Assembly (NCBI RefSeq): GCF_001693255.1
Contig: NZ_CP016474.1
Location: 496,001-560,000 of the forward strand
From: Picosynechococcus sp. PCC 7003
GTDB taxonomy: Bacteria > Cyanobacteriota > Cyanobacteriia > Cyanobacteriales > MRBY01
Direction: 5' to 3'
DNA: 64,000 nt
The stretch's first letter is position 1. Each line of letters starts with the position of its first letter. Positions 38,495-39,184 of the stretch are shown here, piece by piece. The notes below the pieces were generated by a model. The model was given only the letters and a program-made list of their open reading frames with translations. It did no database searches and was not told the origin of the DNA. The position numbers and the translations under genes are program-made.

Positions 38495-38628
38495 TCCTTT
38501 TTACTCCATGCTGTTTGTCTGCATTCCCGAACAATCACAGATCTGTTTAAAACAGATAACGTCGCTCAAAAACCACCGATGCAGTATCCATGGCGACTTC
38601 AAGTTGTATTTTTGAATAGCTGAATAAG

Positions 38629-38660
38629 CTCAATTCATAGAAATAAGCCTATGAATTGAG
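38629..38660. repeat. 12-bp perfect inverted repeat
   Basis: CTCAATTCATAG (38629-38640) and CTATGAATTGAG (38649-38660) are perfectly complementary around an 8-base loop. There is no T run, so it is not a normal terminator. It could be a regulator site or part of an RNA. Confidence 0.7.
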
Positions 38661-39066
38661 TAAATGCCATGTTTTTTAGTCTATACAATGCCGAGTCAAC
38701 AATTTGCCTTTTTTGTCAAAAATCGCCTTAAACTTACTGAATGATTTAATAATCTAAACTTATAGATTGCATCTAGTTGGCCATGTCATGCCTAACTTTC
38801 CTAGGATCTGTCTTGATGAATTTGCTCAAATTACGACGCCAACACCAGTCACAAAAATATCTGTTGTGATCAGGGTGAGTTTTAAGGGTGAGCCCTTGGT
38901 TAGACGATGAATTAATACTTGACTAGCTCCTATTGCAAACAGCGGTAAAACCAGAGATTAAAAGGCGATCGCCGCGCTAAAAGGATAAGCGTTTTTTATA
39001 AAATGCTTCGATTAATCTGAATCAATCCTTTCCAATAGGGGTGGCCTTTGCCATAGACTTAAGGGC

Positions 39067-39131
39067 ATGGTTTAAGGTGAAACCATAGAGTCTTGCCTTT
39101 GATCGTCGCAACCAATATTTTTAGAATATTG
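39067..39131 (+). promoter_or_regulatory. Two hairpins in the sbtB leader
   Basis: ATGGTTT (39067-39073) pairs with AAACCAT (39080-39086), and CAATATT (39113-39119) pairs with AATATTG (39125-39131). Both lie within 120 bp upstream of the sbtB start. The ribosome site AAGAGGAAC lies at about 39170-39178. The hairpins could affect sbtB mRNA stability or translation; this is inference. Confidence 0.4.
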
Positions 39132-39184
39132 AACAGCGACATTTTTTCAACTCGCCATACATCACGCGTCAAGAGGAACTCACT

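Follow-up and report, generated by a model that had tools for sequence, protein, structure and literature searches.

The 690-bp gap upstream of sbtB in Picosynechococcus sp. PCC 7003 (positions 38495 to 39184 of the 64-kb sequence analyzed, called the window here) is, to judge from its motifs, probably a region of divergent control within the regulon for inorganic carbon, with CcmR (NdhR) as putative repressor and a LysR-type protein as putative activator. A predicted sbtB promoter is found on the plus strand and a predicted promoter of an sbtC-like gene on the minus strand; the predicted sbtA promoter would be a third copy of the same module. The sbtB gene (39185 to 39499, plus strand) encodes a PII-like regulator of 104 aa (Pfam P-II, E = 2.6e-14), and sbtA (36799 to 37911, minus strand) encodes a Na+-dependent bicarbonate transporter (Pfam Sbt_1, E = 2.3e-91). 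A small membrane-protein gene (82 aa, 38246 to 38494, minus strand), termed sml, is divergent from sbtB and lies upstream of sbtA. It is a probable sbtC homolog, likened by position and size and hence described as sbtC-like. The original prediction called the nearly 700 bp without a gene unusual. The gap is real, as the listed open reading frames (at least 40 aa) inside it reach at most 47 aa. It is not unique: in a crude ORF map of the window (at least 80 aa) it ranks third after gaps of 1426 and 719 bp. No tRNA was found in the window and no Rfam family matched at the gathering score; at E values up to 5, the region 38240 to 39520 gave three snoRNA-type matches only, far below gathering.

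Each of the three predicted promoters carries a -10-like element, ATAGACT. In the sbtB promoter it is located at 39053 to 39059 (plus strand, from the aligned upstream regions), with a predicted start at about 39066. In the sml promoter it is found at 38678 to 38684 (minus strand), where ATAnACT is conserved before sml leaders, and the predicted leader runs from about 38671 to 38495 as indicated by the -10-to-ATG distance and the fold. This distance is 190 in the window and mostly 187 to 214 across homologs. The sbtA promoter module (38030 to 38077, minus strand) has its -10 at 38071 to 38077. Downstream of each -10 there is a putative operator. For NdhR (CcmR), a review from 2026 names ATAG-N8-CTAT as the motif (PMC13249358). 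Exact copies occur twice in the window, in the sml leader (38637 to 38652, a palindrome read on either strand) and in the sbtA leader (38030 to 38045); the chance expectation is a mean of 0.32, and 4 of 100 shuffles reached two. The putative sbtB copy (39085 to 39100, plus strand, +32 from the -10) deviates from the consensus in its second half, which is CTTT. All three sites begin 32 bp after the first base of ATAGACT.

When this register was written as one pattern (ATANNCT-N25-ATAG-N8-CTWT) and one mismatch was allowed, the window gave three matches, all exact, at the sbtA, sbtC-like and sbtB promoters (0.06 expected; none of 100 shuffles reached three). Since the pattern was drawn from these three sites themselves, independent genome tests weigh more. 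The PCC 7003 genome contains four exact matches, namely the three window sites and one beside ccmR-ndhF3, flanked on one side by a minus-strand gene, judged by eye to be a P450, and on the other by a LysR gene with an ndhF3 fragment after it. With one mismatch allowed there are 9 matches vs 7 for a reversed control pattern. In 40 genomes 31 exact matches were found vs a total of 21, counted regardless of location, for the reversed control. Twenty of the 31 are at carbon genes (sbtA 6, sbtC-like 5, sbtB 3, ccmR-like 4, ndhF3 2; one sbtB was placed by coordinates and ndhF3 was assigned by eye), and 11 are at no recognised carbon gene. Outside the own genome the figure is 16 of 27. The bare motif ATAG-N8-CTAT shows no genome-wide enrichment (24 sites vs 33 for the reversed control). 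Putative NdhR/CcmR sites stand before inorganic-carbon uptake genes in the window and at ccmR-like and ndhF3 loci elsewhere. The module found at ccmR is oriented away from that gene in three genomes, so it need not mark a -10 there.

We split the small genes into classes A and B by a protein pattern of our own, in which the sml of the window falls in class B, and kept 55 of 60 leaders (those with a distance outside 165 to 215 nt or without a -10 match were dropped). The exact motif is present in 19 of 23 class-B leaders, always at +32, and in 1 of 32 class-A leaders. Among 54 unique sbtB leaders, ATAG is found at +32 in 41 and is absent there in 13; a full CTAT second half-site is found in none of the 54. 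The LysR protein encoded beside ndhF3 in the own genome has PDB entry 5y2v as its best match (439 bits, vs 243 for the shorter CmpR chain 5z49) and reached no curated NCBIfam cut-off. The 5y2v entry is named "Rubisco operon transcriptional regulator", and we take this protein to be NdhR. With this ccmR-like gene adjoining ndhF3, the genome encodes a predicted CcmR. CcmR is reported to repress the sbt genes in PCC 7002 (PMC3401165).

The layout shares with the NdhR/CcmR regulon of Synechocystis 6803 and Synechococcus 7002 the exact motif at sbtA and the sbtC-like gene, the apparent target genes (sbtA, sbtB, ndhF3 and ccmR) and the ccmR-like gene beside ndhF3. It differs in the constant offset of 32 bp at which the site begins after the -10, past the predicted start, in the sbtB copy with its single good half-site, and in the sml copy, which is extended to form a 12-bp hairpin. 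Another NdhR motif is TCAATG-N10-ATCAAT. It has no match at the locus, and the window holds four at up to two mismatches, with 7.4 expected. The downstream site might instead be bound by another LysR-type regulator, CmpR or RbcR, given that LysR sites resemble one another and that the motif assignment comes from a single review (PMC13249358) and is unlike the other motif. We regard this as quite unlikely, because the downstream site is exactly the NdhR consensus of that review and the motif recurs beside ccmR-like and ndhF3 genes. The dependence on one review and the unmatched second motif slightly lower our confidence in the main reading and slightly raise that in another regulator.

The activator side of the proposed region is represented by two LysR-type dyads. 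The sbtB promoter carries ATAAG-N5-TTTAT (38985 to 38999, plus strand), 68 bp upstream of the -10, and the sml promoter carries ATAAG-N5-ATTAT (38749 to 38763, minus strand, as read from the sequence), 79 bp upstream of its -10. In the 54 sbtB leaders the dyad lies at -79 to -82 in 37 and at -68 to -71 in 10; the remaining seven have it at other distances or show no clear site. The two preferred offsets, about 81 and 70 bp before the -10, are one helical turn apart, and such helical phasing is expected of an activator that touches RNA polymerase. Among the class-B sml promoters, 12 of 23 have a similar dyad at exactly -79; the window copy is one letter off that search pattern. Two leaders (L034 and L036) contain the perfect dyad ATAAG-N5-CTTAT in the upstream block, the rest of which is conserved in an alignment of 31 upstream regions (AAAATGCTTCGATTAATCTGAATCAATCCTTT, 39000 to 39031, plus strand). 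Relative to the predicted start, the center of the dyad is at about -87 in most sbtB leaders, and at about -74 (sbtB) and -85 (sml) in the window. For RbcR the review gives ATTA(G/A)-N5-(C/T)TAAT, a motif that acts from about position -90 relative to the start (PMC13249358), and this consensus has no match in the window. The dyads resemble RbcR sites in having a 5-bp center and, in most sbtB leaders, may do so in their distance from the predicted start. They differ in sequence (ATAAG-N5-TTTAT in the window), and as the ATAAG dyad is off the published RbcR consensus, the sites were not filed as RbcR.

The hairpins named in the original prediction are all present. The perfect 12-bp hairpin at 38629 to 38660 (arms 38629 to 38640 and 38649 to 38660) does not belong to the sbtB side; it sits in the minus-strand sml leader, just downstream of the predicted sml start, and surrounds the putative operator, its core being ATAG-AAATAAGC-CTAT. 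The window contains two perfect inverted repeats with 12-nt arms and a loop of 3 to 20 nt, compared with one repeat each in 3 of 20 Markov-1 simulations and none in the other 17. The two hairpins predicted at 39067 to 39131 are ATGGTTT/AAACCAT, starting at 39067, and CAATATT/AATATTG (39112 to 39131). The latter is enclosed by GTCGC/GCGAC in a larger hairpin, seen in sequence and fold (39105 to 39140, plus strand). Its outer stem is retained in the nearest relative, and the insert is missing from the remaining aligned leaders. The folding energy of the sbtB leader is -28.9 kcal/mol (z = -2.1), a value equalled or undercut in 5 of 200 shuffles; for the leader on the opposite strand, at 38489 to 38676, it is -47 kcal/mol (z = -2.9), which none of 200 shuffles attained. 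In L007/L013 and L027 the -10 upstream of sbtB is duplicated by a short tandem repeat.

These folds bear on a second reading, in which the leaders act mainly as RNA: a stem in the sbtB leader would control translation or decay, for example by alternative pairing of its 3' arm with the Shine-Dalgarno region, and the sml leader would have conserved hairpins of its own. The best helix in the 54 unique sbtB leaders is a stem-loop, P1 (39069 to 39104, plus strand; 12-bp arms at 39069 to 39080 and 39093 to 39104, 12-nt loop), with the arms GGUUCAAGGCAA/UUGCCUUGAAUU; it appears with interruptions in the minimum free energy fold of the window sequence. Covariation of the hairpins across relatives, suggested as a check in the original prediction, was detected for the P1 helix as a whole (score 2.41 vs a maximum of 2.19 in 300 tree simulations) and failed for stem S1 and for single pairs; against the tree null, no pair fell below E = 0.05 in the three alignments examined. 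The tree nulls were built on trees from the short leaders themselves. In a 44-leader alignment (L042 excluded), 11 cells of P1 changed on both sides vs 4.7 in shuffled data (1 of 500 as high), while the covariation score was reached by 45 of 500 shuffles. By parsimony, G-U changes in P1 outnumber A-C changes (48 vs 23, p = 0.004); without the two basal, mostly G-U pairs the numbers are 36 vs 22 (p = 0.09). One P1 pair is A-C in 10 of the 54 leaders, and RNAalifold found no consensus structure on the 44 leaders.

In four leaders (L026, L054, L106 and L191) the P1 loop is inverted with the stem kept, from AACCATAGAGTC to GACTCTATGGTT (exact in L054 and L191), the inverted part being a 12-nt segment between 8-bp inverted repeats. 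A single origin is weakly indicated, as the trees were built from short leaders. The retained stem favors an RNA function, and the inverted loop speaks against a conserved RNA loop. Repeat-driven template switching between the arms could yield both the loop inversion and the apparent compensation in P1. Two more specific RNA models were rejected. The first model was an H-type pseudoknot (S1+S2) in the sbtB leader, whose stem S1 (TATGGTT/AACCATA) shows no covariation (242 of 300 simulations as high) and is lost in the four loop-inverted leaders. The second was an anti-Shine-Dalgarno switch: it is 95% pairable, but an equally high score was reached in 186 of 300 simulations, and the pairing is poor in the window by eye.

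The hairpin in the sml leader was dropped as a pure RNA element, its core being the NdhR motif of the review (PMC13249358). In class-B leaders the pair beside ATAG/CTAT varies among C-G, U-A, G-C and A-U, with 9 cells changed on both sides vs 2.2 shuffled (0 of 500 as high). The sbtA and ccmR copies in the own genome have no such symmetric flank beside the motif, and the varying pair stays unexplained by the operator alone. A plain DNA operator would not lead one to expect either this variation or the P1 covariation. Further along, in the second half of the sml leader, a GACGGG/CCCGCC hairpin scored higher than all 100 simulations; when class-A and class-B leaders were taken separately, their helices were not above the tree null. 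Conservation is also strong for a CAGGTG...CAGGTG pair in the same half. The idea of a short upstream ORF at an ATG after the -10 was discarded, most class-A sml leaders having ATC there, and no Yfr1 target site was seen by eye. The sbtB leader resembles riboswitch-type or autoregulatory 5' leaders in its near-constant length in most relatives and its covarying stem before the start codon; it differs in having no Rfam family or ligand and weak per-pair covariation. Weighing these points, we consider it unlikely that the leaders act mainly as RNA. An RNA layer on top of DNA control is possible. The regulated leader for carbon response offered in the original prediction is retained chiefly as DNA control, in which sites with the repressor motif and dyads of the activator type keep a preferred register.

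The part of the gap that is conserved in more than the nearest relative spans about 38979 to 39112 when the searches and the alignment are taken together. A search with the whole gap matched 10 of 40 genomes, the own included. Beyond the nearest relative, the matches fall at about 38963 to 39112, plus one 46-bp match at 38718 to 38763 which covers the putative sml activator site. Apart from this patch, the stretch between the promoters aligns only in the nearest relative among the 40 genomes. When the leader of a relative was used for the search, matches at E 0.01 turned up in 42 of 195 genomes from the order, some by short weak pieces. A sequence-only profile gave matches, weak ones among them, in 55 of 388 genomes at the class level and in 76 of 388 at the order level; some of the short matches near E 0.01 may be chance. 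This profile gave one significant match in the own genome. Of 22 class-search loci that were read, 12 have the match before sbtB, 7 have it before an sbtC-like gene, and in 3 the sbtB that should follow is decayed or missing. In L140, L145 and L008/L141 the sbtB promoter and leader persist while the sbtB behind them looks decayed or missing. The aligned upstream regions show the upstream block followed by ATAnACT as a -10-like element, then a downstream stretch and a Shine-Dalgarno sequence; most relatives measure 85 to 91 nt from block start to ATG, as against 138 nt for the window.

A free small RNA for carbon response, also put forward in the original prediction, found no support and is highly improbable. 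The length of the gap would leave room for one, and carbon-responsive non-coding RNAs are known in cyanobacteria (PMC13249358). Against it, no terminator-like site was found in 38480 to 39560, no Rfam family matched, the inter-promoter stretch is poorly conserved, and the conserved stretch extends to the sbtB start codon in most relatives. We found 73 named loci encoding sbtB and processed 65, of which 27 have the leader (loci without a recognised anchor were left out of the leader count); in the rest sbtB lies behind sbtA or has another upstream region. Picosynechococcus sp. PCC 7117 (L053) provides the best named sbtB match and shares both the leader and the divergent small gene. In the purple sulfur bacterium Thiohalocapsa (L063, L066 and L120), SbtB is 83 to 87% identical to the query and lacks the conserved leader; this looks like gene transfer.

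The sml protein matched no family above cut-off and has one hydrophobic stretch as read by eye. Homologs were found in 18 of 60 genomes, the own included, and in many of the loci read they are near sbtA. SbtC is described as a small protein from an ORF upstream of sbtA/sbtB in Synechocystis 6803, in a commentary on Walke et al. 2026 (PMC13360264). The sml gene likewise is a small ORF upstream of sbtA with one apparent hydrophobic stretch, and locus L218, with the order sml-sbtA-sbtB on one strand, has the arrangement given for SbtC in that commentary. In the window, by contrast, sbtB is split off and divergent, and in L222 and L223 the small gene is behind sbtB. The own genome has a second gene of the sbtC-like family on a 253-kb replicon (contig C3, 154568 to 154810; minus strand of L215, 3069 to 3311). 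It lies close to two genes resembling ABC-transporter ATPases, and exact ATAG-N8-CTAT copies are nearby at C3:149393 and C3:156266.

The regulation that we infer, including CcmR binding, the transcription starts and its direction, would proceed as follows. When carbon is plentiful, CcmR would sit on the palindrome just downstream of the start and block initiation or early elongation, the tetramer possibly occupying a second half-site at the -10. At low carbon CcmR would leave, and a LysR-type activator bound to the ATAAG-type dyad about 75 to 90 bp upstream of the start would turn the genes on. The hairpins would be largely palindromes of regulator sites, and stem P1 may add control at the mRNA level. 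A more speculative reading, to which we give a rather low probability, is that one object serves as CcmR operator in the DNA and, once transcribed at the 5' end of the sbtB and sbtC-like messages, as an RNA stem governing their translation or decay, which would make it a dual carbon switch. We met no prior report of the module, the sbtB leader RNA or such a dual switch in the literature searched, in which few subscription papers were covered.

If the main reading is correct, sbtB, sbtA and the probable sbtC would share a promoter module in which the operator keeps a constant register and exact places can be given for repressor and activator action. How SbtC is regulated is raised as a question in PMC13360264, and the region offers a direct, testable answer to it. 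The stem in the sbtB leader would be another candidate element, through which the carbon switch might be controlled at the mRNA level. Should the dual DNA/RNA switch prove true, bicarbonate-transport genes would carry it across many cyanobacterial genera.
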